64,000 nt of DNA from Mycoplasmatota bacterium. Its GTDB lineage: Bacteria; Bacillota_I; Bacilli_A; Izemoplasmatales; Hujiaoplasmataceae. A model generated the notes under the pieces. It searched no databases. It saw only the letters and a program-made list of their open reading frames with translations, and had not been told where the DNA came from. The stretch is taken from the NCBI GenBank assembly GCA_016342455.1, contig JAEIOE010000001.1, forward strand, positions 60,096-124,095. Reading direction: 5' to 3'. This document shows, piece after piece, positions 21,929 through 44,716 of the stretch. The translations under genes were made by a program, and so were the position numbers. Each line of letters begins with the position of its first letter. Within the stretch, counting starts at the first letter, position 1.

Positions 21929-22024
21929 AAAGTTTTTTGAAACATTTTGTAATATATTCATATTGATTCTAGCCAATATCAAATTGATATTCCTTTGATA
22001 ATAATATCAATTAGTCACTAATGT

Positions 22025-22461: not shown

Positions 22462-22649
22462 ATCCAAGAACAAAAGTATTGTTCATTTAGAATCAACAAC
22501 AATGAGCCGTATCACAAATGACCTAAAAGAACGTCGAATATTGCATATTTAGTACTATCAATGAAAGATAGTGCTTTTTTATTAGCTATTTAATATTAGG
22601 TTGAAAAGTGTTATAATTTTATCAAGTATACAAAGAGAGGATTTTACTA

Positions 22650-25368: not shown

Positions 25369-25373
25369 TTTTT

Positions 25374-28300
25374 ATGGGGATATTTGATGAGTCCACTTTA
25401 GAACAAGCTATAATCGAATTGCTTCAAAAGCAAAACTATGAATATATTCATGGTTCTTTTGTTCATAAAGAATTATCAGAGGTATTATTACTCGAAGATT
25501 TTAGACAATATATCCACAGCAGATATTTTGTTTATTCTCTTTCTGATGATGAAATTCAAGCAATAACTTCAGCCGTTTTGAGTATAAGAAGGAAACCATT
25601 GTATGATGCAAATAAAGAGTTTTTGTCATATCTTATGGAGGGGTTTCAGTTAAACCGTAAAGAGAAAGATGAGAAAGATTTGTGGATTAGATTAATTGAT
25701 TTTGATAACTTAGACTCGAATATTTTTAAAATTGTTAATCAACTAGAAATAAAGGATAAAGAAAAGAGAATTCCTGATTTAATTTTATACGTTAATGGAT
25801 TTCCTCTGGTTGTTTTTGAGTTTAAGACAGCGATACAAGAAAACACAACTATACACGATGCTTATACACAATTAACTACCAGATACAGAAGAGATATCCC
25901 TGATTTATTTAAGTATAATGCTTTTGTGGTTATTAGCGATGGAATCAACAATAAATATGGCTCTTTCTTCGCTCCATATGATTATTTTTATTCATGGAGA
26001 AGAATTGATGCGAATAGTATTGAATTTGATGGAATAAACTCATTGTACACATTGATTGAGGGTTTGTTTACAAAGGAGAGGTTACTAAATTTAATTCATG
26101 ATTTTATATATTTTCCTGACTCACCTTCAACTGAATTCAAAGTAGTTTGTAGGTATCCACAATTTTTTGCGGCAAAAAAAATTCATAACAATATACTCAA
26201 ACATATGAAACCTAACGGAGATGGAAAAGGTGGTACTTATTTCGGAGCTACTGGATCTGGAAAAAGCTTTACAATGCTTTTCTTAGTTAGGCTACTAATG
26301 AGAGATAAAAAATTGAATAGTCCTACGATTGTTCTAATCACAGACAGAAATGATTTGGATAAACAATTGTCTGAACTCTTTACTGATTCAAAGAAATTTA
26401 TTGGAGATAAAGATGTCTTAAAAATTTTAGATAGAGAGCACTTGAAAGAAAAGCTTAGTGATCGAAATAGTGGGGGAGTTTATCTATCAACAATTCAAAA
26501 ATTTACTGAAAATACCGATTTGTTAAGTGAAAGAAGTAATATAATTTGTATTTCAGACGAAGCACATAGAAGCCAAACGAATATTAATCAAAAAATAATA
26601 ATTGATGATGATGGAGCGCATAAAAGATTTGGGTTTGCTAAATATTTACATGATTCTTTACCAAATGCTACTTATGTAGGATTCACTGGAACACCAATAG
26701 ATGCAACATTGGATGTTTTCGGTGAAGTAATTGATTCATATACAATGAAAGAATCTGTAGAAGATGGCATCACAGTAAATATTGTATATGAGGGAAGGGC
26801 TGCCAAAGTATTACTTGATCAAGAAAAAGCTAAAGAAATTGAACAGTACTATGAAAAATGCGCTGAAGAAGGGACAAACGAATATCAGATAGAAGAAAGT
26901 CAGAAAGCCGTATCTAAGTTAGATGTAATTATCGGAGATAATCAACGTTTAAATACAGTTGCTGATGATTTGATTGCTCACTACGAAAGAAGAGTTTTTG
27001 AAAACGCTACAGTGAATGGCAAGGCTATGATTGTATGTATGAACAGAGAGATAGCATTCAACTTATTTCAAAAAATAATTGAAAGAAGACCTGAATGGGC
27101 TGTTAGCAAAAAAGCTTCTGATAATGTAGATCTAACAGAATTGGATAAAAGGAAACTTGTCGAGCTTCCTTTTATTAACCTTGTTGTAACAAGAGGAAAA
27201 GATGATAAAAAGGGATTATATGAGCTGGCAGGCACAAAACAACATCGAACAGAGCTTGATAGACAATTCAAAAATGAAAAATCGAATTTTAAGATTGCAA
27301 TTGTTGTAGATATGTGGCTTACCGGTTTTGATGTACCATCTCTAGATACTATGTATATTGATAAACCATTGCATGAACATACACTTATTCAAACAATTTC
27401 TCGAGTCAATAGAGTTTATCCGGGAAAAGAAAAAGGACTAATTGTTGATTATTTTGGGTTTAAATTCCACATGAATATTGCACTTAAACTGTTTAATAAG
27501 TCTGACAGTGAAGTGTTTGAGGGAATTGAAGAAGCAATAAAGATTGTAAAAGATGAACTTGATATTTTGAGAAGAATATTTAGGAATTTTAATGATAAAT
27601 TATTTTTTAAAGGAACTCCAATTCAAAAACTTGAATGTTTGAATCATGCCTCTGAATATGTTCAAATGACTGAAGAATTAGAAAAAAGATTTATGGCTTC
27701 AGTTAAACGCCTAAAATCTGCTTTCAATTTATGCAACGCGAGTGATGAAATTATTCAAAATGAAAGAGATTATATTTATTTCTATGGAGCTATAAGATCA
27801 ATTCTTTTTAAATTGACAAAAGGCGAAGCTCCTGATACCGCTCAAATGAATGAAAAGGTAAGAAAAATGATTGAAGAGGCTATTTTAAGCGAAGGAGTTG
27901 AAGAAGTATTTTCTAAAAATAAAGTAGTGGGTTCAAGATCTATTGATATATTTTCCGATGAGTACCTTGAAAAAATTAATCGAATACCACTCAAAAATAC
28001 AAGAGTTAAAATATTAACAAAACTTCTTAAAGATGCAATAGAAGAGTATAAAAAAGTCAATCGTATTAAAGGAATGATATTCTCCGAGAAATTAAAGAAA
28101 CTAGTTGATGCATATAATGATAGACATGCTGATAAAGTTTATGCAGAAGAAGTTCTTGATAATGTAGCAGAGGAATTAGCTAATTTATTAAAAGAACTTG
28201 ACAATGATAAAAATTCTTTCAAAGAATTAGGAATTGATTATGAAGAGAAAGCATTCTATGATATATTAGTTTCTATTGCAAAAAAACATGATTTCTATGA

Positions 28301-28535
28301 AGAATACTTAGAAAAAGAAGGAGAGCAAAGATTACTCGATCTATCAAAGGAAATGAAGTCCATTGTTGATGATAAATCAAGATATACTGATTGGGCCAAA
28401 AAAGAGGACATTAAGGCAGATCTTAAGGTGTCTATAATATTAAAAATGGCAGAATATGGTTATCCTCCTGTAGTGCAAGATGAAGTGTTTAAAGAGATAT
28501 TTTTGCAAGCTGAAAATTTTAAAAAGTATTTGTAA
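25374..28535 (+). CDS. hsdR: Type I restriction endonuclease subunit
   Basis: FEFKTA, ATGSGKSFTMLFL, DEAHRSQ, VGFTGTPID. Confidence 0.95.
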   Translation: MGIFDESTLEQAIIELLQKQNYEYIHGSFVHKELSEVLLLEDFRQYIHSRYFVYSLSDDEIQAITSAVLSIRRKPLYDANKEFLSYLMEGFQLNRKEKDEKDLWIRLIDFDNLDSNIFKIVNQLEIKDKEKRIPDLILYVNGFPLVVFEFKTAIQENTTIHDAYTQLTTRYRRDIPDLFKYNAFVVISDGINNKYGSFFAPYDYFYSWRRIDANSIEFDGINSLYTLIEGLFTKERLLNLIHDFIYFPDSPSTEFKVVCRYPQFFAAKKIHNNILKHMKPNGDGKGGTYFGATGSGKSFTMLFLVRLLMRDKKLNSPTIVLITDRNDLDKQLSELFTDSKKFIGDKDVLKILDREHLKEKLSDRNSGGVYLSTIQKFTENTDLLSERSNIICISDEAHRSQTNINQKIIIDDDGAHKRFGFAKYLHDSLPNATYVGFTGTPIDATLDVFGEVIDSYTMKESVEDGITVNIVYEGRAAKVLLDQEKAKEIEQYYEKCAEEGTNEYQIEESQKAVSKLDVIIGDNQRLNTVADDLIAHYERRVFENATVNGKAMIVCMNREIAFNLFQKIIERRPEWAVSKKASDNVDLTELDKRKLVELPFINLVVTRGKDDKKGLYELAGTKQHRTELDRQFKNEKSNFKIAIVVDMWLTGFDVPSLDTMYIDKPLHEHTLIQTISRVNRVYPGKEKGLIVDYFGFKFHMNIALKLFNKSDSEVFEGIEEAIKIVKDELDILRRIFRNFNDKLFFKGTPIQKLECLNHASEYVQMTEELEKRFMASVKRLKSAFNLCNASDEIIQNERDYIYFYGAIRSILFKLTKGEAPDTAQMNEKVRKMIEEAILSEGVEEVFSKNKVVGSRSIDIFSDEYLEKINRIPLKNTRVKILTKLLKDAIEEYKKVNRIKGMIFSEKLKKLVDAYNDRHADKVYAEEVLDNVAEELANLLKELDNDKNSFKELGIDYEEKAFYDILVSIAKKHDFYEEYLEKEGEQRLLDLSKEMKSIVDDKSRYTDWAKKEDIKADLKVSIILKMAEYGYPPVVQDEVFKEIFLQAENFKKYL

Positions 28536-28578
28536 ATATACTACAAGTATAAGATAACCGCATTAGAATATAGAGGGG

Positions 28579-29484
28579 TTGAAATCAGTGAGAGATGCTA
28601 TAAATAATCTTATAAAAAGTACTTATATACTAAAATATAAATTGCCTGAATCTGATATTCCTAAAACAACTATTACAACACTAAATGATTATTGCTATGA
28701 GCCCATTTCAGACAATAGCGTTGCAGAAAGTATTTATAATAGCATTATCGACTATTGCTTAAATGAAACAGAGATTGATATCACAAAATTAAATGAAAAT
28801 CAAATATATGCTATAGAAAATCGTTTGCGATATCTTTCTGAAGATTCACTTGATACACAACTTAAATATGGCTTTTTTGGAGAAACACTTCTTAATATTA
28901 TATTAGAAGTGTTATTCAATTCGTCAAAAATCATTGCTAAAGGATATTTCTACAGCCCAGTGGAAAAATCTGAACCAAAAGGATATGATTGTTTCCACTT
29001 TGTAGAAAGTGACACAGGAGAAAAGGAATTTTGGTTCGGTGAATCAAAAATGTATAAGTCTATTAGCCTTGCAACAAAAAGTGTTATTGATAATATTAAT
29101 AAATCATTATCAAAGAAGTATTATGAAAGTAATTTGAGAGTTATTCTATCTAGAGCTAATGATTTAGATGAAACAAATTGTACGCCATTATTTTTAGATA
29201 TTCTTTACAAAATTAAGCAAGGACCAATTTCTCTATTTGATGAATTCAAAAATAATAATATTAAAGTAATGTATCCTATTTTATTGGCATATGATGATAG
29301 CTCAACTAGTTATAAAGGTAAGATAACTAATTCTGTTCATAAAATACAAAATAAGATTGATCAGATAAGTTTGATTAACGAAATAGGAGCAAGCATTATA
29401 TTTATATTAATCCCGATGGGGAGTGTAGTAAATATTAAAAAGGATGTTTTAAAATGGATTTCTCAGCAAAAATCGATTTTGTAA
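28579..29484 (+). CDS. hamA: HamA-like (DUF1837) Hachiman effector
   Basis: LKYGFFGETLLNIILE...KGYDCFHFVESDTGEKEFWFGESKMYKSI (PD-(D/E)xK-like); overlaps a helicase gene. Confidence 0.75.
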   Translation: MKSVRDAINNLIKSTYILKYKLPESDIPKTTITTLNDYCYEPISDNSVAESIYNSIIDYCLNETEIDITKLNENQIYAIENRLRYLSEDSLDTQLKYGFFGETLLNIILEVLFNSSKIIAKGYFYSPVEKSEPKGYDCFHFVESDTGEKEFWFGESKMYKSISLATKSVIDNINKSLSKKYYESNLRVILSRANDLDETNCTPLFLDILYKIKQGPISLFDEFKNNNIKVMYPILLAYDDSSTSYKGKITNSVHKIQNKIDQISLINEIGASIIFILIPMGSVVNIKKDVLKWISQQKSIL

Positions 29485-31697
29485 TATCGAGAGTTAATAA
29501 TTATGATTTAAGTAGAAATCAACATTCACAACTAATAATCCAAATTTGTGACCTTTTTAGTTGTGCGATGACTGAAGAGTTGTCTCAACATCAGCTATCT
29601 CTGCTATACTTTTTATCAAATTTAATTGGAGTCCCTCAATATTTTGATTTACTGTGTAAATTGAAAAATATTCAATGCGATATTGCTTTCTCTAATAATC
29701 TGATTGTTTCAAGTTTAGTAAGAGAATCTTTCTTATTCATTGATTCAAAAAACAAAGTCCATATTTTTCAAAAGGAAATAATTGATACATTCAGTTCTTT
29801 TGAACAGAATAGATATATAATAAGTGCGCCGACTTCCTTTGGAAAAACTTTTATTGTTTTTCATATTATAAAAAAAATGAAGTATGAAAACATTGTGCTT
29901 ATATTTCCTACAATCTCTTTGCTCTCAGAAAATCTCCAACGGTTACTTAATCTTGTTTCAAATAGTTACTTAAGGAAGTATAAATTAATAACATTAAGCG
30001 AAGAAATTCCAGATTCCAAATTGAACATATTCGTTTTCACTCCGGAAAGATTTATGACGTTTATTGATAAAAACCCAGGATATAGGTATGATTTTGTTTT
30101 TATGGATGAGTTATATAAAATTGATAATGAATTTTTATCTAATGATGAAAATTTTGAAATAACTGAAAACAATAGAGATATTTCTTTTAGAATTGCTTTG
30201 GAAATGGCATTATTTCGTACAAATGATTGTTTGTTGGCGGGACCATTTCTTCATTATTCCTCAAATGAAACCATGATTAATTTTGTTGAGGATAATGGAT
30301 TTGTATCATTAATCTATAACGATATAGAACTGGTTCAAAAAATTCATATCACATATAAAAATCTGAGAAGGCAGGCATTTGATAATATAGAATTCAAAGA
30401 TGCAAAATCAAGTTTAAATAAAGGTGATAGAATTGCAGCAATTATAGCTAAAATTGCCATGGACGAAACGATTGTTTATTGTCCTAGAAAACACCTTGCA
30501 GAAGAATACGCAATAAAATTAGTTGCAAAGAAAATTTTTAAAACTAAGCATGATGATAGATTTGATATGTTTATAGAACATCTTGAAAGAAATTTTACAA
30601 AGCACTGGTGTTTAGTAAAAGCACTTAAAGCTGGGATTGGAATACATCACGGAACAATACCTAAGTATATTCAAAGAGAAATTATAGATTTATTTAATAA
30701 CGGATTAATAAAATGTATATTTTCTACAACCACTATTACTGAAGGCGTTAATACCACTGCCAAAAATATGATTATTCTTTCTCATAAGAAAGGGATAAAG
30801 GACCTTAAAAAATTTGATGTTTTAAATATTATTGGGCGTGCCGGAAGATTTAATCAACACTTTGTTGGAAGAGTATTTATTCTTGATGAGGAATTGAGTA
30901 TTATACTTGATTCAGAAGATGATATCTTATCTCATAAAAACTATGGAAAAGACACAATTAAATCTGATCTAGACTTAGCAATTACTAAGGAAAAATATTT
31001 ATCTGGCAGTCAATCCAGTAAAAAGCAAGATATAAATGAAAATTATAATGAGAACGATATTCCTCAAAATGTTAGAGACACGTTCTTAACTATCTTCCCA
31101 GATGAGAAAATTAAAATATATAAGCTAATCTTACAAGTAATGACACGTAAACCTAAATACATTCCTGATATAATTGAAAATATTAATCATAGAAGAGTAT
31201 CAAGAGATGGACTTCAGTTACTTATAGATGTGATTAGAAGAGTTATACCAAAAGATGATAAATTGTATGGTTATACAGAAAAAGGAGACCATGAGTATTC
31301 TGTCATAACTTTTATGTTAAATTCATATATGATTGGTGGGTTTCCTAGCTTGTTAAAGTATGAAATTGAACATGGAACCAAAATTGACACCGCTGTTAGA
31401 AAAGCCGCTAAACTCGTATATAATATTTTCAGATACGAATTAGTAAAACATATTGGACTAATAGATCTTGTTTATAGAACTATATATGCTAATATATATA
31501 AAGTTAATTTAGACGAGGTAAACGGATTTAGTTCTTTGTTAAGCTATTTAGAGTATGGAGCATATTCAGAAAAAGGAAGAAAAGTTAGTGACTATGGGGT
31601 TTCTCAAAACTTATTAAAATATATTGATAATAATAAGATTATATTGGATGATTATGAGAAAATACTAAATAGAGAAATTGAAAAAATAACCTCTTAA
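29454..31697 (+). CDS. hamB: HamB-like SF2 helicase (Hachiman)
   Basis: ISAPTSFGKTFIVF, FMDELYKI, TTTITEGVNTTAKNMI, IIGRAGR. Confidence 0.8.
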   Translation: MDFSAKIDFVISRVNNYDLSRNQHSQLIIQICDLFSCAMTEELSQHQLSLLYFLSNLIGVPQYFDLLCKLKNIQCDIAFSNNLIVSSLVRESFLFIDSKNKVHIFQKEIIDTFSSFEQNRYIISAPTSFGKTFIVFHIIKKMKYENIVLIFPTISLLSENLQRLLNLVSNSYLRKYKLITLSEEIPDSKLNIFVFTPERFMTFIDKNPGYRYDFVFMDELYKIDNEFLSNDENFEITENNRDISFRIALEMALFRTNDCLLAGPFLHYSSNETMINFVEDNGFVSLIYNDIELVQKIHITYKNLRRQAFDNIEFKDAKSSLNKGDRIAAIIAKIAMDETIVYCPRKHLAEEYAIKLVAKKIFKTKHDDRFDMFIEHLERNFTKHWCLVKALKAGIGIHHGTIPKYIQREIIDLFNNGLIKCIFSTTTITEGVNTTAKNMIILSHKKGIKDLKKFDVLNIIGRAGRFNQHFVGRVFILDEELSIILDSEDDILSHKNYGKDTIKSDLDLAITKEKYLSGSQSSKKQDINENYNENDIPQNVRDTFLTIFPDEKIKIYKLILQVMTRKPKYIPDIIENINHRRVSRDGLQLLIDVIRRVIPKDDKLYGYTEKGDHEYSVITFMLNSYMIGGFPSLLKYEIEHGTKIDTAVRKAAKLVYNIFRYELVKHIGLIDLVYRTIYANIYKVNLDEVNGFSSLLSYLEYGAYSEKGRKVSDYGVSQNLLKYIDNNKIILDDYEKILNREIEKITS

Positions 31698-32157
31698 ATC
31701 AATATAATGAATGTAGGTGGAAAGATGATTGAATTGACTAACAATTTATAGATTTGCAGTTTAGCTTTTATATATTTTAATTTTTATAACAAATAATTAC
31801 TCAAACTATTTGAGTGAAGTTCTCAATGGCTCAAAGCAGAATAGAAATAAGTAATGAATCCTAAACTTTGTGAATCGGACACGACTAAGTAATTAGATAT
31901 CTCCGATAAAGGCAGGAAGCAGAAACTCATGGCTAAAACAAAAATGAAATAAGTGTATATAAAGTCAAATACAATATCAGTTATTATGGGGGATATAGGG
32001 GGCATACATCTATATGATATATGAACTTATATACGGGGATAAATAGATATAGAAAGGATATTATGAATCTAAATATATTTGATAAATATATTATATTAAT
32101 GTCCATAATGATGTGAATTGTATTGAGTATTAAGAATTAATAATAAAAATAATATTT

Positions 32158-32189
32158 GAATCTATAACTTCGGTTATAGGTTCTTTTTT
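32158..32189 (+). terminator. Rho-independent terminator
   Basis: GAATCTATAACTTCGGTTATAGGTTCTTTTTT. Confidence 0.85.
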
Positions 32190-32208
32190 ATTCGTTAGGA
32201 GGAAATGA

Positions 32209-32583
32209 ATGAAAAAAGGAATTTTAATTAAGAGAAAGAGCGATGGGAAGAAGTTAGAAATTAAACTAGTAGATCTTCATTCTGATAAAAGTGTAAGCGA
32301 GTTACATCAAATATATAAATTACTTGAGGTTAGCTTAATTGATGTTGTCGAATATAAAGGAATGTCAATATATGTTGATGATGAAGGATTATTAAAAGAT
32401 GATCCAAAACTTACTATGCATATTAAAGACAGAAATCAATGTTTGTTTGGAAATCTACTTATATTAGGAAGTGTAAATGATGAGGGTGAAACTATGGGAA
32501 TAACAAAGGATGATGCAACTGCATTTTGCGATTCCAAAATATTTGTTCATCCTAAAACCGAGAGGGAATTAATTGCATGGTAG
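32209..32583 (+). CDS. DUF3846-like protein
   Basis: IHVKDRNQCLFGNLLILG-like region. Confidence 0.5.
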   Translation: MKKGILIKRKSDGKKLEIKLVDLHSDKSVSELHQIYKLLEVSLIDVVEYKGMSIYVDDEGLLKDDPKLTMHIKDRNQCLFGNLLILGSVNDEGETMGITKDDATAFCDSKIFVHPKTERELIAW

Positions 32584-32644
32584 AAATCTAGCAGTTGCAA
32601 TCAATATATTGCAACTCTTCAACAAAACTTAAAAGGAGGAAAGT

Positions 32645-32929
32645 ATGCAACAGAAGAAATATTATCCTAGTAAAAGAGATAATAACAATTCAAGTATCAC
32701 AAAACCATTTGCTAATGTGAACAGAACCAGGTATAAACAAGGTCATCAGAATCAGCTCTTAAACGCTTCTAGAAGGACTGAGACTTATTCTCAATATAAG
32801 ACTGTAATCGTTACAGAAAGTGTCAATATAGTTGATTTTAACAGCGATGATTTTGAATATGAGTTTGGAGACAAAAAAGTTAAGAAGAAACAGCATAACT
32901 ATAACAATAATCAAAGGAGGAAATACTAA
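32645..32929 (+). CDS. Hypothetical basic protein
   Basis: ORF with RBS, co-directional operon. Confidence 0.5.
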   Translation: MQQKKYYPSKRDNNNSSITKPFANVNRTRYKQGHQNQLLNASRRTETYSQYKTVIVTESVNIVDFNSDDFEYEFGDKKVKKKQHNYNNNQRRKY

Positions 32930-33247
32930 ATGCTAAACCAATGTATATTAGTCGGAAAGGTTAGCAAGATTGCTGTAAACAATGATGATGAAATCATAAT
33001 GACTTTAGGAATCAAAAGAAATGTTAGAACAGAAGATGAGTTAATAGAAAATATTGATTTCATTGATGTTAAGATATCGAAAGAAATCGATGCAACTGCA
33101 ATTGACTACATAAAAAAAAATGCAACTGTAGGTATAAAAGCCAGAGTACAATCAGTAGAGTTTGATATTGATGATAGTTGCATAAGGGTCGCAGAAATCA
33201 TTGCAGAGAAGATAACATTCATCAATATTAAGAATGATGATGAATAG
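32930..33247 (+). CDS. SSB/OB-fold-like protein
   Basis: MLNQCILVGKVSKI... start typical of SSB-like proteins. Confidence 0.65.
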   Translation: MLNQCILVGKVSKIAVNNDDEIIMTLGIKRNVRTEDELIENIDFIDVKISKEIDATAIDYIKKNATVGIKARVQSVEFDIDDSCIRVAEIIAEKITFINIKNDDE

Positions 33248-33627
33248 TGTATAAAACTATACATCTAGAAAAAGACGTCTTCGAGGATGTCTATTTTTAT
33301 AACCTCAAAAGTAGTAAATCACCTCTTTTGAACCTGTTTTATGAACAAACAGACTTATGGACACTACTTTATGCAAGTATTCAAGATGAAATACTACTTA
33401 AACTGATAGTATTTAACCTAGAGTTTAATATAGCTCCAGTTCATACATTTATAAAATATTATGAATCTGAGCTAAATAATCATAACTTAAACAGATTTCA
33501 TAAGCAATGCATCGGTTATCATGTTGCATTTTTGCTTGCAACGCTTGGATACAAAAAAACAAAACGAATCTATAGAAAGGATGCGATTATTAAATACGGT
33601 TCATTCTTTGAAAAGATTGCACTGTAA
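33247..33627 (+). CDS. Hypothetical protein
   Basis: ORF overlapping the upstream stop. Confidence 0.5.
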   Translation: MYKTIHLEKDVFEDVYFYNLKSSKSPLLNLFYEQTDLWTLLYASIQDEILLKLIVFNLEFNIAPVHTFIKYYESELNNHNLNRFHKQCIGYHVAFLLATLGYKKTKRIYRKDAIIKYGSFFEKIAL

Positions 33628-33655
33628 TGCATAACACAAAACAATGGAAGTAATC

Positions 33656-34102
33656 ATGGAAATAGTAGAAACATATTTGAAGATTAAAGACGATGCAATA
33701 CTTAATATTGCATCGATAACAAATGCAACTATGGGTGCAACTATCTTTAGGGATATGTTTGGTGATAATTCACAAGAATGTCTTGGGATAATTTGTTTAG
33801 ATACTAAAAATGTTCCTACGCACTTCTCGATTATTTATAAAGGAACTGCAAACTATATAGTTATATCACCAAAAGACATATTAAAAGTTGCACTTTTAAG
33901 CAATGCAACTTCAATTATTATGGGACACAATCATCCGTCTACGGATTTGAGTCCATCAGAAAATGATTTACAAACAACAAGGAGCATAGTGAAAGCTTGT
34001 AAGATTGTTGATATTAAACTGCTAGATCATTTGATTATAAATTCTTATGGGGATCACTATAGTATTAGAGAACACCATTCAAAGGAGTTTGGCAAAAGCT
34101 AA
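33656..34102 (+). CDS. RadC-like JAB domain protein
   Basis: IIMGHNHPSTDLSPSENDLQTTRSI...LLDHLII. Confidence 0.85.
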   Translation: MEIVETYLKIKDDAILNIASITNATMGATIFRDMFGDNSQECLGIICLDTKNVPTHFSIIYKGTANYIVISPKDILKVALLSNATSIIMGHNHPSTDLSPSENDLQTTRSIVKACKIVDIKLLDHLIINSYGDHYSIREHHSKEFGKS

Positions 34103-34110
34103 ACTCCTTT
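34081..34110 (+). terminator. Terminator overlapping the radC-like stop
   Basis: AAAGGAGTTTGGCAAAAGCTAAACTCCTTT. Confidence 0.65.
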
Positions 34111-34162
34111 ATTCAACAGGCATCACTTATGATATAATTATTCACAAGGATGGTGAGGGATA

Positions 34163-34912
34163 ATGTATAAAGTTGCAAGAATTAAAATTATTCCAAATAA
34201 TATTGGTAATGAAGATTTTGATGATTTAACAGTAGATTTTTTGTCAATGCTATACAAAAATGGACAAATACTATCTGAGTATATAGTTGAAAATCATGAA
34301 ACTTATTATTTAGCAACAGTTACTACAACTGATGACGATTCATTAGATTCAAAGTATTTTAATAAGTATATTCATATGGTATTAGAAAAAATAGACTATA
34401 GTGTAGAAATGGTGTCTGATGACGCATTATCTGAAGAGTCTTGCAAGTGTAAAGAACATGATTTTTATTTCCTTGCTCCTGTTTATAGTGAGGAATCAAG
34501 TCCCGTTTACTGTGGTAATTGTGGTAAAGAAATCCCATTAATCCATTTACCATATATAAATAATGATGAAGAGCATTTTTGGGTTTTATCATTCCAAAGA
34601 GAATTTAAAGCTGTAGACACATTATGGATGGATAGCTTATCAGATAGATTTACAAGAAGGCAATTACTTAAACACGATTCACAGTTAAGTAAAGCTGCTT
34701 TGGGAATTTGTAGGGACTTGGAAGAAAAAGTCAAGAAACCAGTCTTATACTTGATGCCTCCAAAGTATATGTTTAGTCTGTTATTTAAAAAGGACGAGAC
34801 AATTGATGTTTGTCCTAAATGTGGTAAACAATTAGAAATGGTTGATACAGAACAGGCAATTGACAAAGTATGTTGGGATTGTAGGCTTGGATTTAAAGAA
34901 GCTTCCAAATAA
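34163..34912 (+). CDS. Zinc-ribbon protein (DUF2310-like)
   Basis: CGNCGKEIP...CPKCGKQLE...CWDC. Confidence 0.6.
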   Translation: MYKVARIKIIPNNIGNEDFDDLTVDFLSMLYKNGQILSEYIVENHETYYLATVTTTDDDSLDSKYFNKYIHMVLEKIDYSVEMVSDDALSEESCKCKEHDFYFLAPVYSEESSPVYCGNCGKEIPLIHLPYINNDEEHFWVLSFQREFKAVDTLWMDSLSDRFTRRQLLKHDSQLSKAALGICRDLEEKVKKPVLYLMPPKYMFSLLFKKDETIDVCPKCGKQLEMVDTEQAIDKVCWDCRLGFKEASK

Positions 34913-34994
34913 ACTAATTTAATACATTTAAGAGTCTAGATTAATTTCTAGGCTTTTTTATTTATATGTTAATGTATTCTTAATCTTCTATGAA

Positions 34995-35046
34995 ACACCC
35001 AACAAACCATTAACGATATATATATCGAATCATTAATGGAGGGTGT
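34995..35046. promoter_or_regulatory. Nested palindrome upstream of the recombinase operon
   Basis: ACACCC..CCATTAA-CGATATATATATCG..TTAATGG..GGGTGT. Confidence 0.6.
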
Positions 35047-35051
35047 ATCAT

Positions 35052-35156
35052 ATGGAAAATCATAAAGAAAATCGTATACTTGAATTATTATACGAATTAT
35101 TATTAAGGAACTTAGAAAGGAATAGAAAGGAGAAGCAAGATGGACAAGATGAATAA
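35052..35156 (+). CDS. Small ORF (34 aa) preceding and overlapping the serine recombinase gene
   Basis: MENHKENRILELLYELLLRNLERNRKEKQDGQDE; overlaps the recombinase start. Confidence 0.45.
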   Translation: MENHKENRILELLYELLLRNLERNRKEKQDGQDE

Positions 35157-36705
35157 GAAAATTGGACTATATATAAGAGTTAGTTCTGAAAAGCAACTTC
35201 TAGAAGGTTTCTCCTTTGAAGATCAAGAAGAGAAATTAATAGAAGAAGCCAAAAGAGATAAAAGAGAATACATCTTATATAAAGATGGTGGAATTACTGG
35301 AAAGAATATGGATCAGAGACTAGGGTTAAAACAACTTATGAAAGATGTTGAATTTGGTCTAATAGATAAAGTTTTTGTTACTAAGATATCAAGACTTGCT
35401 AGAAACTCAAGAGATCTAGAAAATATCATCTATGAGTTTGAAAAGAACAATGTCTATTTTAAAGCAATAAGTGATGGAATAGATACATCTACACCAATTG
35501 GAAGTGTAATGGTTAAATTACTTGGAATCTTTGCAGAGATGGAACGTGATATCATCATTGAACAAACTCGCGCAGGTGCAGAGAAAAGAGCTAAGGAAGG
35601 AAAAATGTATGGCTCAGGACCAATCTTAGGATATGACAGAGTGCCTAATGGTAGAACAATGAAAATAATTCCTAATAAAACCGAGAAGCTAATCATAGAA
35701 AAAATATTCAACATGTATTTAGGTGGATATGGATATAAAGCAATTACTAACAATCTTAATAATGAAGGATATCGAACAAAGAAGCATAAACTATTTGCAA
35801 TCAATACCGTTAAAACGATATTAGAAAATCCACTTTATGCAGGGTACATCAGATATGGAAAATACAAAGATTGGACAAAGAAACGAAGAAAAGGATTATC
35901 TGAACAACACATCTTAGTTGAAGGAAATCATAAAGCGATTATTTCATATGAAGATTACCTAAAAGTTCAAGAAAGAATGAAAACGAATCAACGTAAAAAA
36001 CCAGCTGTAGGAAAATATATTTTATCAGGTGTTTTAACTTGTCCTGAATGTGGAAGTAAAATGGTTGGATCAAAAACTGTATATAAAACTAAACGTGGAA
36101 AAGTTGAAAAACTATATTACACATGTTCTAGATTTCACAATAAAGGAATCACTGCTTGCCATTCAAATGGTGTAAGAGTAGATTTGATTGATCCTATCGT
36201 AATTAAAAAGATTGCTAAGAAATTGGACTCTGAAAACCTTGCAGATACTCTTTATGATTATATTGTTAATAGTACTATAGATGTAAATAGTTATGATGGT
36301 AAGAAAAGGTTACTTGAAGTAGAAATATCAAAACTATCTACTCGTAAAATTGAATTAAGAGGGTTATATACTGAAGGTATTATTTCAACAGATGAACTTA
36401 AAGAAGATATTGAGAAAATTAATCATAAAACAATTGAATACCAGAGGTTAATCAACGACTTTGAGAAAGATTGTAATATCCAAGAATCTACCCCAGTAAA
36501 TATATCAAAACAAGACGTACAATCATTCTTATCTAATATATCAAATGCACTTAAAACTAATGTTGAATCAGAGAAATTAAAGGTGAAAGAGTTGATTAGA
36601 ATTATTGTGAACAAAATTGATGTTAAAAGTAAAGCCAGACTTGACATTGACATAGATATAAATTATAAGGAGATATTATACAAGTTCCTCGAAGCCGACC
36701 AATAG
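35140..36705 (+). CDS. Large serine recombinase
   Basis: GLYIRVSSEKQLLEGFSFEDQ, TKISRLARNSRDL, recombinase domain, zinc ribbon CPECGSKM...CSRFHNKGITAC. Confidence 0.95.
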   Translation: MDKMNKKIGLYIRVSSEKQLLEGFSFEDQEEKLIEEAKRDKREYILYKDGGITGKNMDQRLGLKQLMKDVEFGLIDKVFVTKISRLARNSRDLENIIYEFEKNNVYFKAISDGIDTSTPIGSVMVKLLGIFAEMERDIIIEQTRAGAEKRAKEGKMYGSGPILGYDRVPNGRTMKIIPNKTEKLIIEKIFNMYLGGYGYKAITNNLNNEGYRTKKHKLFAINTVKTILENPLYAGYIRYGKYKDWTKKRRKGLSEQHILVEGNHKAIISYEDYLKVQERMKTNQRKKPAVGKYILSGVLTCPECGSKMVGSKTVYKTKRGKVEKLYYTCSRFHNKGITACHSNGVRVDLIDPIVIKKIAKKLDSENLADTLYDYIVNSTIDVNSYDGKKRLLEVEISKLSTRKIELRGLYTEGIISTDELKEDIEKINHKTIEYQRLINDFEKDCNIQESTPVNISKQDVQSFLSNISNALKTNVESEKLKVKELIRIIVNKIDVKSKARLDIDIDINYKEILYKFLEADQ

Positions 36706-37147
36706 AGCACAGACTTCCTTTACACGAAATCTCAAACCTCAAATTCAGGGTGTATATACTGCCTTGTTACCAAGAAATTAGAGGAATATAGGATTCGATA
36801 ATATATTGGCTATTTTTAGCGGTTAGGGGCGAGGCATGCGCAAACTCGAATCCGACATTTCAGAAAGTAATAAAATCAGCAAAATAGCATTCTTATGTAA
36901 ATATTTATTCAATATTGGCTTTCAAAATATCTGAAAAGGGGTTATAATCCATTATAAGGATATTTTACTATTGATTAATAATAGCGCAGTGAGTACCTTT
37001 AGAGAACTCGTTGCCATATATGACTATGCAATTGTGCTGTTTTTTTTGAGTTTGATGGAAATGAAATCTACGATTTTACATAACGCCCAAACTCACGGTA
37101 AAAACATCTGATCAAATTGAATGTGTTTTACGAATGGAGGTAAAATA

Positions 37148-38080
37148 GTGGGCGAATATAAGCGCGGGGAGTATTTAAATAATCTGATCAAAAAAAGAGG
37201 TATATCGCAGGAACAACTTGGCAAAATAGTAGGTCTTAGTAGACAATCTGTAAATGAATATATTAAAAAAAATTCATATTATAAGATTGATGATTACATT
37301 ATTATGTCCAGGGAGTTTGATGTATCTCTTGATGATTTAATTTTTGGTGGTAAGAAGCGAACTACGAAGCTAAGAAGGTTTGCTATGAAGCTATTAGATA
37401 AAATGAAGATAGAGAAACTTCCTAATCAACCAGATGGCCTTGGTAAGTACTTGATAGACTACGTGATTGAACTAGATGATTTAGAAAAGTTCAATTTCTA
37501 TCTTAAAGAAGATGTATATCAAATTCCTCTTCATAATCATATTGGATTATTAAAGTTTTTAGTTAGACATAATCAACACGAGTTATTAAGAAAAGGAATT
37601 AGGAATACGATTGTTGATCCTAAAAGTAAAAACAATTATCTATTAAATCGATCCTTTGAATTTCCTGTATTGGATTTTGTACAAAGTCCAGGTAAACATT
37701 TTTTTGAGAGAAGCAATCATCAATACAATTCTTTAAATACATATCAGAAGGAATTTGTGGATGTAATTCTAGATACTAATTCAAATGATATTCTAGACTT
37801 GTTACCTTATGCTCCAAAAGCAAATGTAAATGATTATCATTCCTTATTTTATTGGGCTATAAAAACAAATAAAGTATTTGTTGTAAAATACTATATTGAT
37901 AAAAAGAATGATTATATAACCCAATCATATTTTGATACTGCCATTCATGAAAATGCTTGGACTGTTGCAAAATACTTTTTTGAAAATATGGAATTGAAGA
38001 CATTAGCAAATCTAAAAAAAATAAAAGATACAAAATACAAAAAAGTGTGGACAAATAAATTGAATGATATAGACAGTTAG
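37148..38080 (+). CDS. XRE-family HTH regulator with ankyrin-like C-terminus (GTG start)
   Basis: LIKKRGISQEQLGKIVGLSRQSVNEYI; RBS GGAGG before GTG. Confidence 0.7.
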   Translation: MGEYKRGEYLNNLIKKRGISQEQLGKIVGLSRQSVNEYIKKNSYYKIDDYIIMSREFDVSLDDLIFGGKKRTTKLRRFAMKLLDKMKIEKLPNQPDGLGKYLIDYVIELDDLEKFNFYLKEDVYQIPLHNHIGLLKFLVRHNQHELLRKGIRNTIVDPKSKNNYLLNRSFEFPVLDFVQSPGKHFFERSNHQYNSLNTYQKEFVDVILDTNSNDILDLLPYAPKANVNDYHSLFYWAIKTNKVFVVKYYIDKKNDYITQSYFDTAIHENAWTVAKYFFENMELKTLANLKKIKDTKYKKVWTNKLNDIDS

Positions 38081-38142
38081 ATAAACATTTTTATATCTTG
38101 TAGTAAATCAATAAATTTAGTTATTGAAGGAGTAAGAAGTCT

Positions 38143-41100
38143 ATGAACTATCAAGGTGGTTATGAATTTCAAGACAAAATTGCAGTGTACCTTTCGCTAA
38201 TGGAATATACGGAAAATACTGACAGCAAAATTACATGTGAAAAAAAAGAAGTTAATAAGGATTATTTTGATGATATAATAATAAATTCTAGTGAATTAAC
38301 AAAAAAAATACAAGTCAAATATTCTTATGATAGTGAGATTAGTGTAAGTATGCTCTCAAGTGGGGATCTCTGCCTTTTAGACTATTTTTATACTTATCAG
38401 CAACTTTCTGAAGAAAAAGAAAAATTTGAACTTAAGATAATTACTAACCGTAAGCTGGAAAGCAATCTGTTCGTACAAACATCAGAGTATAATTTTGGGT
38501 TGCTTAAATATCATTTGAAAACAGAGGCTGTCATAAAGGATAACGAAATAAATCGTTCTTTTGTTAAAATAAGAAGAGATTTGAAGTTAGAAGATTACGA
38601 AGCTTTTAAACATTTTCTTAATGAATTAGAATTTTACCAAGTTCCTAAAGATGTGTCGTTTCAGTTTTTCAATGAAGGTAGTTTTGAGTCACTTATTCTA
38701 GATTGTTTAGAAAATAAAGTTGGTATAGGTTATTTTCCTTACGAGAACTATGACTCAAGGCTGGTCGCGCTTAGAATAGAGGAAATATTTAGAGCGTTAA
38801 GAATTGGGAAAAACAAAAAAAATTTATTGAGTATAGGAAAGTTGTTTGAATTAATAGGAATTAAGAAAATATTTGATACTTTATCTCATCGTTTTCCAAT
38901 TAATGAATCAAAATATATTAGAAGAGATAATATAGCAATTAATGTAATAAATCTTCTTGAAAAAGAAAATAGAGTACACTTAGTTGGTGAACCTGGTGCA
39001 GGTAAATCATGGTTTATAGATACGTTTGTTTCTAAATTATCATATACTTGCATGAAGTATTGCTTTTTCATTAGTTTGAATGATAAAGATTATAAAAACA
39101 GGGTAATGTATAATAATTTTTTATATAATATAAAATATCAATTGTTGAAAGAATCAATATCGTCAAAAGAGTCATTTAAATTGCTTGGAGCAGTTAAAGA
39201 AGATGAATTAATAAGTTATATTAATAATATAACACAAAAATTTATTTTGGTTTTAGATGGCCTTGATCATATCACTAGAATCAGTAAATCAAATGATTTA
39301 TTAAAGCTAAGTGAGTTTATTAAAAAGATTCATAATGATAATGTCAAGATTCTATGTGTAAGTCAACCAATGGAAATATTTGAGGGTTTCCACTTTATAG
39401 AGTTTGATAAACTTACCGATGATGAAATAGGATCATATCTAAATTTATGTGGATTTAGTAAAATTCCTAAAAATATTATAGATATATCTGGGCGTAATTT
39501 TTTGTATTTAAGTTATTTAACAAAAAAATACGATGGCACGATACTTCCAGAAACACTTATTGATTTTGAATACGATGGAGATATAAGAGAGTATTATAAA
39601 TATCTCATAAACGGAGAAAGTTACAAGAATGATGTATTGTCCTTGATAGCCTGTACAAACATACCATTTACAGAAGAAGAGATAAGAAGAGTTCTTCATC
39701 AAAGAAAAATTGAAGATGTAACCAAAGCAATAACTCAATTGAAACATTTATTTAATTTTGATAAAAATAGTAACATCTATATTTATCATGAAAGTTTAAA
39801 AAGATACTTCCTTGAACAGTTTGTTGACATAGGCGTAGATTACAAAGCCAAATACTTTAAAGATATTTTGCATATTTTAGTAAATGATGAAGAATACAAC
39901 TTATTTGCTTCAAGAAAGAAATATATATTCTATTTACCTTTATTGATGGATTTAGAATATTTTGAGAAAGTAATATTCTGTTTTAGAAGCGATTTTGTTA
40001 GTCGATCTATTTCAGACGGGTTTTTATTGAGAGATATAAATAAGAACTTTGATTGTTTTACAATATCTGCAAAAGAAACTGACAACCCTTCAATGCTATT
40101 AGAATTGAGTGAAATGAGAAAACAATTGAATAGCGCTAACGAACACATTTCCGAAATGCTTGACATATATTATTATAATTTAATAAATATTAATAACAAT
40201 AATGAATATATCCAGAACGAAATTGAATACGATTTTACTCAATATTACGGGGATTTAATCGTTCCAATTAACAAAATTATATATTCTGAGAATATTAGTG
40301 ATGCAACTGATAAAGAATTAAAGTTAATTGATAATGATTACTTAAAGTCCATTTACTTAACCAAATCAATATCCAAATTAAAAAAAATAAATATAGACAC
40401 ATTAAAATCATTAAAGTTTATTGACATAAATTTTTTTGATTTCACAAACTTAGAAATAAGCGATGAAATCGCAATTCTATTAGGCGTTAGACGCGATTAC
40501 AGTCATATACAATCAAATTTAATTAAGGTAAAAGAGTTGATTCAAAAAAACTATATTTCACAAAACGATTTATTTGAGTTGCTTCCCAATATTGTGAATT
40601 TGTCTACTTCAGAAATGGAGGAGTTTGAGAGTTTTAAAGGAAGCGAATTATGGAAAGATAAATTTTACTATGTATTCATAAATACATATAATGTAAACAC
40701 AAATTTATTTGATGAACAAGTACTGGAGTTTTTAGATATTCTAAAACTGAAGAAAAAATACATATTTAAAGGGAAACCAAGGTCTGTCGACTTTTATTTT
40801 AAAAATAGTGAATTATTTTTCTTGGTAAAGTATTTAATTGATAATATTAAAGATAAGAGTAATTATGAAAAAGCTTTGCTAATATTACAATATTCTAATG
40901 AAGAATATCAAAGGTCAATTCCAAATTTAAACATTTTGGATGTCTTTTACTATATTAATGTCTTGGAAAAAGGAAAATATGTTGACATATTTATTAAGTA
41001 CATAAATAAATATCTAAGAGGAAATGATGAATACTATTTTGATTTATCAAAGACCACATTAGATATTATTCATTTTACTGAAAACGCAAATGAGAGTAAT

Positions 41101-43221
41101 CTTTTTATGAATTTTTCTAAAGAAGTATGTTCTTATACAATGCATAAAGACATGTCTTTAGATTGTTTAATAGAGGGCATAAAAACTTTAGAAAATTCGG
41201 AAGATAAAATACACAAATATTTTACACTATTAGATATTACAAAATATGTCAGAAAAAGAACAGATGGTAAAGAAACTAAGCATTTTGAGTATTTAGTCTT
41301 TAATGATTTTTATAATAATTTTACAGGTGAAGCAATAAAATATTTAATTATTAATTTAAGGACAGACATAAATAGATGGCAGAATAAAGAAATGCTAGAC
41401 TACATTACAAATAATATTTGTTTTGATGATGAATTATTAGAAATTATATATTATAAATCATTAAATACGAATGATACAAGTATGGTATTTGATAGATACA
41501 GTAAACTATTAGGAAACGCTAACGAATTATTTGAAAAAGATTTATTATATAAAATTCATAAGTTAAACAATTATGAAACAACGCTTGATGTAGATGTTTT
41601 GAATGAATTTATACATAAAATCAATAAAAAATATGTCAACTACAAAGATATATCTGATTTTAAATGCAATGACAAACCTGAAAAAATTGAATCAGAGAAG
41701 AGAAATATTATTCGAGAAAATATACCGGGGAATTTATTTTGGGAAGTAGCTAATAATCAACTTATAGATTTCAAGGACCCTATAACAAAAGAATACGTTT
41801 TATTAAATATAGAAGTGTTACTGGATATTTATGATAAAAAGTATAGTAGACAGATAGTATACAACAACATTATGGCTTTTGAAGAAATTATAGATAGTTC
41901 TAATCTAGGTGTAGATAGGAAGGTAATGTTTTATTTAAAAGCTTTTGCATATATACGAGGCGGATGGGGAGAATCATTTGAGCATTTTGATTTGTTTCTA
42001 AAAGCTTATTCATTGGATGCTGATATGACTACAAGTATTATATTGGACTTCCTTGCAGAGGATATTACTGGAAACATATATACTTTAAAATCATCGTCAA
42101 ACAAATTAAGAATCATAAATTTAATTGAACCAAATAATGATTTAAGACATTATGAAATTATTGAGTCTTATGAAGCTATGCTGCTGCCATATTATGTTCC
42201 AAAAGCTTTCGATTTAATAAAATCACTAGATATTAATTACTTAATCTTCCAGTTAATGTTAGAAAAAATGAAAATGTTAAATAGGGAAAATATAATCAAT
42301 ACAATAAGTGTTCTATATCACTTTAGAAATGAAAAAAAGTATTCCGAATCAATAACAAGTGCATTAATTGATTTTTTTTCAAATTACGATAGCAGATTTC
42401 CGCTAGTATATGTGATTACCTTCGAACTTTTTAATGACTATTTGGGAGCAAAGAAAGATTTAATAGATATAACAAAAATTTTAGATTCTAATGATTTCAC
42501 TTTAAAAGTATATTTTAATAGAATTGAACTGTGTCCTGTGCCGGAATATGATTATAATAATATATATTTATCTACATGGTTAAATATGTTAGGATTACCT
42601 CAATTTTGCAATTTTTTTGAAATTAATAAAGCATTAGAAAAATCTCGTGATTCTTTAGAATTTCAGACCATATTAAATAAGGATTTAGTTAACTGGGATG
42701 AATTATATTCGGTTGAAAATCCTAACTTAATAAGGATGAATGAACAATATCTGTTCATTCAAGAATTATTTAGCACTTATAAGGATTGCAAATATGAGTT
42801 ATCTTGTGATATTTTCATTAATTATACAAAATTTAGAATTTCAGATTTAGTTCTTCAAAACTCATCTCAATTTATCCCAAGAATAAATTCAAAAGAAATT
42901 ATTGAAGAAAGAAAATATGAGTATCATAATTCAAAAAGATACGTGAATTCTTCAAAGCATAGATTTTTGTCTGATCTATATGAGAAAGATATACTTTTCT
43001 ATGATGTTTTATCGCATTCAACGCTTGTGCCATATCATATAAATATGAAAACAGAAACAGATGAACTAATTATTAGTAAAATAATTCTTCCTACTGAAAA
43101 TGATCCAATTAATAAAGTAGAAAGAATTATAGTAAATATTCAAGTGATCTCAACAAAATCGAATGAATTGGTGAAAATTACATTTAAAGATTTCTTGAGT
43201 ACGATATATAAAATCAAGTAA
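38143..43221 (+). CDS. Giant STAND-type P-loop NTPase with N-terminal Cap4/DUF4297-like nuclease domain (Avs-like defence candidate)
   Basis: N-term GYEFQDKIAVYL...DDIIINSSELTKKIQVKYS; VHLVGEPGAGKSWFIDTF; KFILVLDGLDHITR; ~1000-residue helical C-terminus. Confidence 0.7.
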   Translation: MNYQGGYEFQDKIAVYLSLMEYTENTDSKITCEKKEVNKDYFDDIIINSSELTKKIQVKYSYDSEISVSMLSSGDLCLLDYFYTYQQLSEEKEKFELKIITNRKLESNLFVQTSEYNFGLLKYHLKTEAVIKDNEINRSFVKIRRDLKLEDYEAFKHFLNELEFYQVPKDVSFQFFNEGSFESLILDCLENKVGIGYFPYENYDSRLVALRIEEIFRALRIGKNKKNLLSIGKLFELIGIKKIFDTLSHRFPINESKYIRRDNIAINVINLLEKENRVHLVGEPGAGKSWFIDTFVSKLSYTCMKYCFFISLNDKDYKNRVMYNNFLYNIKYQLLKESISSKESFKLLGAVKEDELISYINNITQKFILVLDGLDHITRISKSNDLLKLSEFIKKIHNDNVKILCVSQPMEIFEGFHFIEFDKLTDDEIGSYLNLCGFSKIPKNIIDISGRNFLYLSYLTKKYDGTILPETLIDFEYDGDIREYYKYLINGESYKNDVLSLIACTNIPFTEEEIRRVLHQRKIEDVTKAITQLKHLFNFDKNSNIYIYHESLKRYFLEQFVDIGVDYKAKYFKDILHILVNDEEYNLFASRKKYIFYLPLLMDLEYFEKVIFCFRSDFVSRSISDGFLLRDINKNFDCFTISAKETDNPSMLLELSEMRKQLNSANEHISEMLDIYYYNLININNNNEYIQNEIEYDFTQYYGDLIVPINKIIYSENISDATDKELKLIDNDYLKSIYLTKSISKLKKINIDTLKSLKFIDINFFDFTNLEISDEIAILLGVRRDYSHIQSNLIKVKELIQKNYISQNDLFELLPNIVNLSTSEMEEFESFKGSELWKDKFYYVFINTYNVNTNLFDEQVLEFLDILKLKKKYIFKGKPRSVDFYFKNSELFFLVKYLIDNIKDKSNYEKALLILQYSNEEYQRSIPNLNILDVFYYINVLEKGKYVDIFIKYINKYLRGNDEYYFDLSKTTLDIIHFTENANESNLFMNFSKEVCSYTMHKDMSLDCLIEGIKTLENSEDKIHKYFTLLDITKYVRKRTDGKETKHFEYLVFNDFYNNFTGEAIKYLIINLRTDINRWQNKEMLDYITNNICFDDELLEIIYYKSLNTNDTSMVFDRYSKLLGNANELFEKDLLYKIHKLNNYETTLDVDVLNEFIHKINKKYVNYKDISDFKCNDKPEKIESEKRNIIRENIPGNLFWEVANNQLIDFKDPITKEYVLLNIEVLLDIYDKKYSRQIVYNNIMAFEEIIDSSNLGVDRKVMFYLKAFAYIRGGWGESFEHFDLFLKAYSLDADMTTSIILDFLAEDITGNIYTLKSSSNKLRIINLIEPNNDLRHYEIIESYEAMLLPYYVPKAFDLIKSLDINYLIFQLMLEKMKMLNRENIINTISVLYHFRNEKKYSESITSALIDFFSNYDSRFPLVYVITFELFNDYLGAKKDLIDITKILDSNDFTLKVYFNRIELCPVPEYDYNNIYLSTWLNMLGLPQFCNFFEINKALEKSRDSLEFQTILNKDLVNWDELYSVENPNLIRMNEQYLFIQELFSTYKDCKYELSCDIFINYTKFRISDLVLQNSSQFIPRINSKEIIEERKYEYHNSKRYVNSSKHRFLSDLYEKDILFYDVLSHSTLVPYHINMKTETDELIISKIILPTENDPINKVERIIVNIQVISTKSNELVKITFKDFLSTIYKIK

Positions 43222-43461
43222 AAAGCCGTATATTTAAAAATGTAATATCCCTTTAATTCTAAATTATCCTGTTATAAATATTCCCCTAACTGCGATAAAC
43301 TGAGCCGTATCACAAACTAAAATATTTTAGGAGTGGTAGATACTTTTATACAGGGATAATAATTAATACAAATTATCCTCGAAGCCTTGACGTGACTGAA
43401 ATATCGTGTTAAACTAACTTTGAGGATAAAATATACGATAAATTAGTCACGAGGTGAAAAC

Positions 43462-44511
43462 ATGTATAATCTACCATACGAAGTAAATCTAAATTCTATT
43501 GAAATATTAAAACAGCTTAGTGTTGCTAATAATAATATTGGTGAATTAAAAGGAATATTGAATCTTTTGCCAAATCCTAAATCGACATTAAGTCTCATTT
43601 TAATTCGTGAATCCAAAGATTCATCTGCAATTGAAAATATCATTACAACATATGACCAAATTTTCAAAGAGATTGTTTCGAAAACCCCATCTGGTGGAAA
43701 GCCTAAGGAAGTTGTAAACTATAAGTTGGCTATTGAACATGGGTTACAACTAATAAGAGGAAATCACTTTATCAGCACGAATACCCTAGTAGAAATCCAA
43801 GAAAGAATTGAACAAAACAAAGGAGGAATTAGGAAACTTCCAGGAACTGTAATAATTAATGATTCAACAAAAGAAATTGTTCATACTCCACCTCGAAATG
43901 AGAAACTAATCAGAGAATATATGCATAATTTAGAACAATATATAAATTTAGAATCAGAATATGATCCGTTGATTAACATGGCACTTATTCATTTTCAGTT
44001 TGAAAGTATACATCCTTTCTATGATGGAAACGGAAGAACAGGAAGGATATTGAATATTCTATATTTAGTTTTGAAAAACAAAATTCAAGAACCAATTCTT
44101 TATTTAAGCAAATACATTATCGAAAATAAAAACGAATATTATCGTTTGTTAAAAATTTGCAATGAAGATATTGCTAATATTCCTAATTTTGTTCTATATA
44201 TATTAAGAGGAATTACAGAAACTTCAAAAAACACAATTGAACTTATTATGTCAATCAATCATTCTATTGAAATTACAAAAGAAGAAATGAAAGAAAGATT
44301 ACCAGATATCTATAGATTTGAAATTGTTGAGCATTTATTTTCTTATTTATATACAAAAAACGAATATTTTAGAGAAAATCTAAACATTTCTAGAGCGACA
44401 GCAACCAAATATTTGAAAGCGTTAGAAAAGGAAGGATTTATAGTGTCGGAGCGTTTAGGCAAAGAAGTCATATATAAGAACGTTCAGCTATTCAACTTAC
44501 TAAAAGACTAA
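43462..44511 (+). CDS. Fic-domain protein with N-terminal inhibitory motif and C-terminal wHTH
   Basis: IHPFYDGNGRTGRI; SSAIEN inhibitory-type motif; C-terminal NISRATATKYLKALEKEGFI. Confidence 0.9.
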   Translation: MYNLPYEVNLNSIEILKQLSVANNNIGELKGILNLLPNPKSTLSLILIRESKDSSAIENIITTYDQIFKEIVSKTPSGGKPKEVVNYKLAIEHGLQLIRGNHFISTNTLVEIQERIEQNKGGIRKLPGTVIINDSTKEIVHTPPRNEKLIREYMHNLEQYINLESEYDPLINMALIHFQFESIHPFYDGNGRTGRILNILYLVLKNKIQEPILYLSKYIIENKNEYYRLLKICNEDIANIPNFVLYILRGITETSKNTIELIMSINHSIEITKEEMKERLPDIYRFEIVEHLFSYLYTKNEYFRENLNISRATATKYLKALEKEGFIVSERLGKEVIYKNVQLFNLLKD

Positions 44512-44601
44512 ATATAATCACAATATAGATATCATTATAGGGACGCGCAGCGTAACAAATAACATCTGATATTTAAGTATCTGCCGGTCCGAGTTATATG
44601 A

Positions 44602-44716
44602 TTATTAGCGACTTAACTTCACGTTCTACTTTCGGCACCATTAAAGCACTCTAACTATAACGAACAAAACGTTATGTTATCTAGATAAGATGGACTTTGG
44701 TCTGTCTTTTTTTATG
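44602..44716 (+). repeat. Attachment-site copy C plus tRNA-Thr terminator repeat
   Basis: TTATTAGCGACTTAACTTCACGTTCTACTTTCGGCACCATTAAAGCACTCTAACTATAACG... as in copies A and B. Confidence 0.85.

Follow-up and report, generated by a model that had tools for sequence, protein, structure and literature searches.

Two genes within a defence island

We analysed a window of 64,000 nucleotides (contig JAEIOE010000001.1, positions 60,096 to 124,095) from the low-GC, 2.43-Mb genome of a Mycoplasmatota bacterium. This work concerns a gene for a protein of 1692 residues, which combines a Cap4-like nuclease domain, a STAND nucleoside triphosphatase (NTPase) and a long helical repeat region, and the gene for a helix-turn-helix (HTH) protein located directly upstream. 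All features are listed in Table 1. Two genes had been described here by a first-pass annotation, made from the sequence alone, as a candidate defence operon. Both open reading frames (ORFs) are present and intact. They lie on the same strand, 62 nt apart, and no terminator-like site was seen between them. The large gene has AAGGAG upstream of its ATG start. The HTH ORF opens at an ATG at 37121; the alternative GTG at 37148 is the likelier start because of its better ribosome-binding site (GGAGG seven bases upstream).

The large gene is no chance ORF, since a full-length homologue with 34% identity exists (L007) and the motifs are kept in about 76 relatives. A truncation by frameshift was also considered and rejected: the tail of L007 is colinear with that of the window protein, and the 240-bp gap before the SoFic gene contains no remnant.

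Table 1. Features of the locus, in window coordinates (aa, amino acids; R-M, restriction-modification)
Feature	Position	Strand	Basis or remark
Cap4-like nuclease / STAND NTPase / helical-repeat protein, 1692 aa	38143..43221	+	ORF; about 76 aligned homologues
Cap4-like PD-(D/E)XK nuclease domain, aa 6-170	38158..38652	+	model matches; conservation of D43/D44/Q57/K59
STAND NTPase core and winged-helix region, aa 260-565 (approximate boundaries)	38920..39837	+	Pfam; Avs1b-like core; Foldseek
Walker A GEPGAGKSW, aa 282-290	38986..39012	+	G285, G287, K288 invariant
Walker B region ILVLDGLDH, aa 368-376	39244..39270	+	D372, G373, D375, H376 invariant
H549-x-S551 in the winged-helix region, motif of the NACHT/NLR 'H-x-S' type	39787..39795	+	unchanged across about 76 homologues
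Helical repeat scaffold, candidate sensor, aa 566-1425	39838..42417	+	hhalign to family, prob 100; all-helical model
C-terminal tail, aa 1426-1692, for the most part lineage-specific; stands where the family has its C-module	42418..43218	+	module not detected
XRE HTH regulator	37148..38080	+	Pfam HTH_3, E 4e-7
Promoter-like site TTCAAA-16-TATAAT; -10 box overlaid by palindrome TTATAATCCATTATAA	36921..36957	+	candidate autoregulatory operator, weak
Large serine recombinase of the carrying element	35140..36705	+	Resolvase 1.3e-35, Recombinase 3.8e-26; 72% to L132
Element backbone genes (94 aa, SSB, 126 aa, RadC)	32645..34102	+	common to the G059 element
22.6-kb block between 109-bp direct repeats	22024..44713	.	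repeats 22024-22132 and 44605-44713, 95% identical
SoFic adenylyltransferase, next cargo gene	43462..44511	+	PADLOC SoFic 4.9e-95
Type I R-M operon	22650-28535		
Complete Hachiman system, directly after the type I R-M operon	28579-31697		HamA PADLOC 2.8e-85, HamB 4e-226; genes overlap

Domains of the 1692-residue protein

The isolated N-terminus matched the PADLOC model of the Cap4-type effector endonuclease of CBASS (2e-5). The Pfam family Cap4_nuclease was matched by 3 of 25 aligned homologues (best value 1.2e-5), the window protein itself being below threshold. D43, D44, Q57 and K59, the latter two forming a Q57-x-K59 pattern, are conserved in 97-99% of the approximately 76 homologues. The PD-(D/E)XK core with the conserved D...QxK residues that marks the Cap4/DUF4297 family is present, and in the AlphaFold2 model the domain has an alpha/beta fold with a predicted local distance difference test score (pLDDT) of about 90.

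For residues 278-407, the Pfam match to NPHP3_N was above the cut-off (1.7e-7). Residues G285, G287, K288, R320, D372, D375, H376 and H549 are essentially invariant; taken together, the nuclease and NTPase residues are conserved in 97-100% of the homologues. A model of residues 1-700, built from 54 sequences, reached a mean pLDDT of 87.5. Compared with solved structures by Foldseek, it matched Avs3 best (E 7e-14, 772 alignment columns), followed by Avs4 (2e-9), the plant NLR protein RPP1, MalT, Avs5 (8e-8) and CED-4. The TM-scores of these matches were low (about 0.2-0.3), presumably reflecting a different arrangement of the domains; the match is therefore an agreement of domains and their order, not of overall pose. 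Fold comparison alone gave these results, as phmmer and profile searches of the PDB sequences revealed no STAND or Avs match.

Two motifs are conserved in the helical scaffold: SYTxHKD, with HKD at residues 1001-1003, and TDGKET at residues 1040-1045. Their cores, (R/H)KD and TDGK, are kept even in a relative from a Pseudomonas aeruginosa plasmid (L131). Residues 640-1692 were modelled as a helical solenoid at moderate to low confidence (mean pLDDT 63, below 50 for the last 115 residues). When ranked by E-value, Foldseek matches of this model were generic solenoids; Avs3 was found with a probability of 1.00 and a TMq of 0.32, the next listed value being 0.15.

The elements of a STAND effector-sensor protein are all present: an N-terminal effector, Walker A and B motifs with a winged-helix histidine, and C-terminal repeats. 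The first-pass annotation had proposed a Cap4/DUF4297-like N-terminus, a P-loop ATPase, a very long helical C-terminus and, overall, the effector-STAND-sensor layout of Avs proteins. Its first proposal agrees with the CBASS-effector match, the Cap4_nuclease matches of relatives and the conserved residues, and the nuclease fold, the lack of which it had listed as a refuting result, is predicted. The ATPase is confirmed by the NPHP3_N match and the invariant motifs, and the helical C-terminus by a predicted structure of moderate confidence. The layout is borne out by the defensive neighbourhood and by the comparison with Avs proteins that the annotation had called for, in which Avs3 and Avs4 lead the matches of residues 1-700. 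Its remark that the C-terminus matches no sensor that can be named also stands: a profile comparison with Avs3a gave a probability of 0.6%.

Distribution of the family and its C-terminal module

A search of genome contigs with a single sequence found nothing; a search with a five-member alignment found 80 loci in the collection, which holds one genome per species. The family is spread over more than 10 phyla, including Bacillota, Bacteroidota, Pseudomonadota, Actinomycetota, Chloroflexota, Myxococcota, Campylobacterota and Mycoplasmatota. Plasmid-borne homologues occur in Moraxella, Pseudoalteromonas and Pseudanabaena. A search by DNA similarity revealed no relatives in E. coli. Members are typically 1860-2150 residues long. 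Homology of the window protein to the family profile spans residues 6-1506 (E 3e-117); by hhalign it reaches residue 1425. The window protein has its closest relatives in Izemoplasmataceae and Acholeplasmataceae (which the NCBI taxonomy places in Mollicutes), and it forms one clade with L008 and L007 (support 100/99).

Most members share a conserved C-terminal module of about 300 residues, which is fused to the large protein in 37 loci and encoded by an adjacent separate ORF in about 10, some of them in Pseudomonadota and Actinomycetota. In some loci of these two phyla the separate gene overlaps the large gene (L003 12736-13608, L004 12718-13581 and similar cases). No copy of the module was detected in the window protein or in L007 (hhalign probability of the window tail 0.6%; none by hidden Markov model). 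These two proteins have a colinear tail of their own in common (28% identity). In view of the hhalign value, the idea that the window tail is a shortened copy of the module was dropped.

Elsewhere, the genes directly beside homologues encode BrxL, type I R-M, AbiEi, SoFic, PD-Lambda-4 and Mads proteins, among others. Upstream of the Moraxella relative (L003 4184-7927) lies a gene for a PD-Lambda-4_A-like protein, the first 250 residues of which match Avs4 (2e-67).

Comparison with named systems

None of the libraries used (PADLOC, NCBIfam, Pfam) has a name for the family. No NCBIfam equivalog covers the window protein, and a limited literature search gave no description of the family, which the main Avs and bNACHT papers and their supplements may mention.

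CBASS Cap4 and Lamassu LmuA belong to the same nuclease fold family, but a SAVED domain, a CD-NTase and the Lamassu partner genes were not found beside the large gene. Its neighbours encode the XRE regulator, the recombinase and SoFic, and not the CD-NTase which accompanies a CBASS Cap effector.

The PADLOC library contains models for Avs4 and Avs5. Up to an E-value of 1, none of its Avs models, Avs3a, Avs4 and Avs5 included, matched the window protein, while the Avs3a of a Priestia plasmid (L144), used as positive control, scored 1653 bits in the same library. Genuine Avs3a sequences for comparison were taken from plasmids. Avs3 resembles the window protein in combining a Cap4-type nuclease, a STAND module and a very long helical C-terminus; among solved structures it matches the N-terminal part best, for the sensor part its TM-score is the highest of the listed hits, and the avs3a/avs3b gene pair parallels the separate C-module of some relatives. 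It differs in that the profile similarity is weak in the N-terminal part and absent in the C-terminal part, and no avs3b-like ORF is located between 43221 and 43462. Avs3a was not found in a sample of the window's phylum, in which no positive control gave a signal.

For the family as a whole, Avs1b has the closest STAND core by sequence: an Avs1b-like core was found in 17 of 23 relatives (best value 4.6e-15), with scores well short of the 1500 bits required by NCBIfam. However, Avs1b is annotated as a protease-STAND protein, whereas the window protein starts with a Cap4 nuclease and has no Avs1b match. The Avs2 profile PDLC02164 finds nothing in the genome. Avs4 and Avs5 share the effector-STAND-repeat layout with the window protein, but no sequence match. 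Avs4 has an Mrr-type nuclease. Avs5 has a Sir2 NADase (PMC12931631). The bNACHT and other bacterial NLR-related proteins also combine a NACHT-like NTPase with an N-terminal effector; the Pfam NACHT match of the window protein, at residues 278-407, is just below the cut-off (4e-5, 23.9 versus 26.7 bits). This group was reportedly described by Kibby et al. in 2023. The window protein appears to be Avs-like in its manner of working, and by its sequence it is none of Avs1-5.

The HTH gene and the carrying element

The HTH gene stands after the serine recombinase gene. Relatives of its product were found in two other genomes, G059 (35% identity) and G041 (29%), in neither case beside a homologue of the large gene. 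Conversely, the other homologues of the large gene, the two closest included, have no HTH homologue beside them; their upstream genes are different, and the HTH gene was rejected as a conserved partner.

The element in G059 has the same backbone in the same order (identity with the window: 94-residue protein 74%, SSB 48%, 126-residue protein 80%, RadC 72%, recombinase 72%). There, too, the HTH gene follows the recombinase, and next comes Thoeris ThsB (3e-43) where the window has the sensor. Since the nearest relative sits behind the same recombinase, with a conserved backbone and different cargo, the HTH gene is most probably a component of the mobile element and heads a slot for variable cargo. 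In G059 (contig 31, L132 107-12845) ThsB is accompanied by a small 8xMP-like membrane protein and an HSP90-like ATPase. The two-gene operon of the first-pass annotation, with the HTH protein as dedicated partner, was thus not borne out. Of its 'HTH/ankyrin-like regulator', the HTH part is sound (HTH_3, 4e-7), while any ankyrin-like repeats are weak, with an Ank_3 match (E 0.023) that stays below the cut-off. The HTH protein may control the transcript of the sensor. The putative operator over the -10 box was graded weak because the number of palindromes upstream of the HTH gene is not above chance.

Besides the genes described, the 22.6-kb block contains type I R-M, Hachiman and SoFic. A third, partial copy of the repeat (88 bp) is located at 17794-17881; the copies are 95-97% identical and on the same strand, and the genome contains no further ones. 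They bracket blocks of 4.2 kb and 22.6 kb, like serial integration at one site.

Proposed function and alternatives

We consider it most likely that the 1692-residue protein is an immune sensor of the NLR/Avs type which serves in defence. This is based on its domains, conserved residues and predicted fold, on the spread of the family, and on the location in a defence island and a mobile context. What the first-pass annotation had noticed is real, and it is probably a defensive system of a known kind.

What is established for STAND proteins and for Avs1-4 allows a likely mechanism to be proposed. The STAND NTPase would keep the resting protein inactive. A phage-made protein would be bound by the C-terminal helical scaffold, leading to ATP-dependent opening and oligomerisation. 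The N-terminal Cap4-like domains would thereby be brought together and would cut DNA, which would stop the infection, probably by cell death (abortive infection). The upstream HTH protein, an element-derived regulator, may repress the sensor transcript and would be no part of the sensing machine. Phage proteins such as terminase and portal trigger the nuclease effectors of Avs1-4 (PMC12931631).

Several observations weigh against a defence sensor. The model of the sensor part has low confidence (mean pLDDT 63 for residues 640-1692), and its Foldseek E-value for Avs3 is 8e-3. In comparison with four Avs3a-type proteins, the profile of the family C-terminal part shows no sequence link (probability 0.6%) and that of the nuclease-STAND part a weak one (33-54%). 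No homologues were found in phage records or viral contigs, and the neighbours of homologues were tallied without a control set. We know of no family member for which an activity, a phage phenotype or a ligand has been reported.

Different functions can be envisaged for the same genes. A dedicated two-gene system, in which the HTH protein acts as an antitoxin-like repressor or as sensing partner, would fit the common strand, the short gap without terminator-like site and the palindrome over the -10 box. It is unlikely, as no other homologue of the large gene is adjoined by an HTH homologue, not even the two closest, the nearest HTH relative stands behind the same recombinase but ahead of Thoeris ThsB, and the palindrome is not above chance. 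The protein might instead truly belong, as a divergent member, to the Avs1-Avs3 lineage and recognise the phage large terminase. Avs3 as best fold match of the N-terminal model and with the highest TM-score for the C-terminal one, the Avs1b-like STAND core of the family and the fused or separate C-module, reminiscent of avs3a/avs3b, point in this direction. We nevertheless regard such membership as doubtful: PADLOC gave no Avs match for the window, searches of the genome for Avs3a and Avs2 were empty, profile-profile probabilities were 0.6% for the C-terminus against Avs3a and 0.1% for the C-module against Avs3b, and the window protein itself has no detectable C-module. Finally, the location beside restriction genes on an integrative element, and the occurrence of relatives on plasmids, would suit a protein that guards not against phages but against plasmids or incoming mobile DNA. 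This is quite improbable, as phage proteins activate the closest architectures whose triggers are known (PMC12931631) and phage defences are commonly located on plasmids.

For the phage-defence sensor which we favour, one tentative extension may be considered. The unnamed family, present in more than 10 phyla, could use its modular C-terminus to recognise a phage protein that is neither terminase nor portal, the module being fused, separate or, in the Mollicutes-type lineage, replaced; an exchange of this end would then change what is detected.

Only a few triggers of bacterial NLR-like sensors are known. The present family is large, and its nuclease and NTPase are almost unchanged while the C-terminal end may be fused, encoded separately or replaced. 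The choice of phage protein by the end module should therefore be directly testable by exchange between relatives, and this exchangeable C-terminus is the interesting part of the family. In addition, the locus points to a mobile element which pairs one recombinase-regulator unit with interchangeable defence cargo, the sensor in the window and Thoeris ThsB in G059.

Other genes in the surroundings

At the left edge of the 22.6-kb block (21130-21928), a gene with XRE and nucleotidyltransferase parts is followed by a HepT-like gene, forming a toxin-antitoxin pair of the MntA/HepT type. The smaller repeat-bracketed block contains an ORF of 526 residues without Pfam or PADLOC match (18890-20470). 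To the right of the larger block, a single ORF (45010-47637) encodes a fusion of DUF1015 with a Glu/Leu/Phe/Val dehydrogenase. It is 74-80% identical in genomes of the same order, where it is located between a serC/serA-like pair and an aminotransferase-like gene. On the minus strand at 47826-51234, a subtilase with Listeria-Bacteroides repeats is partly overlapped by an ORF with bacterial Ig-like domains; the two are possibly one surface-protein gene split by a frameshift.

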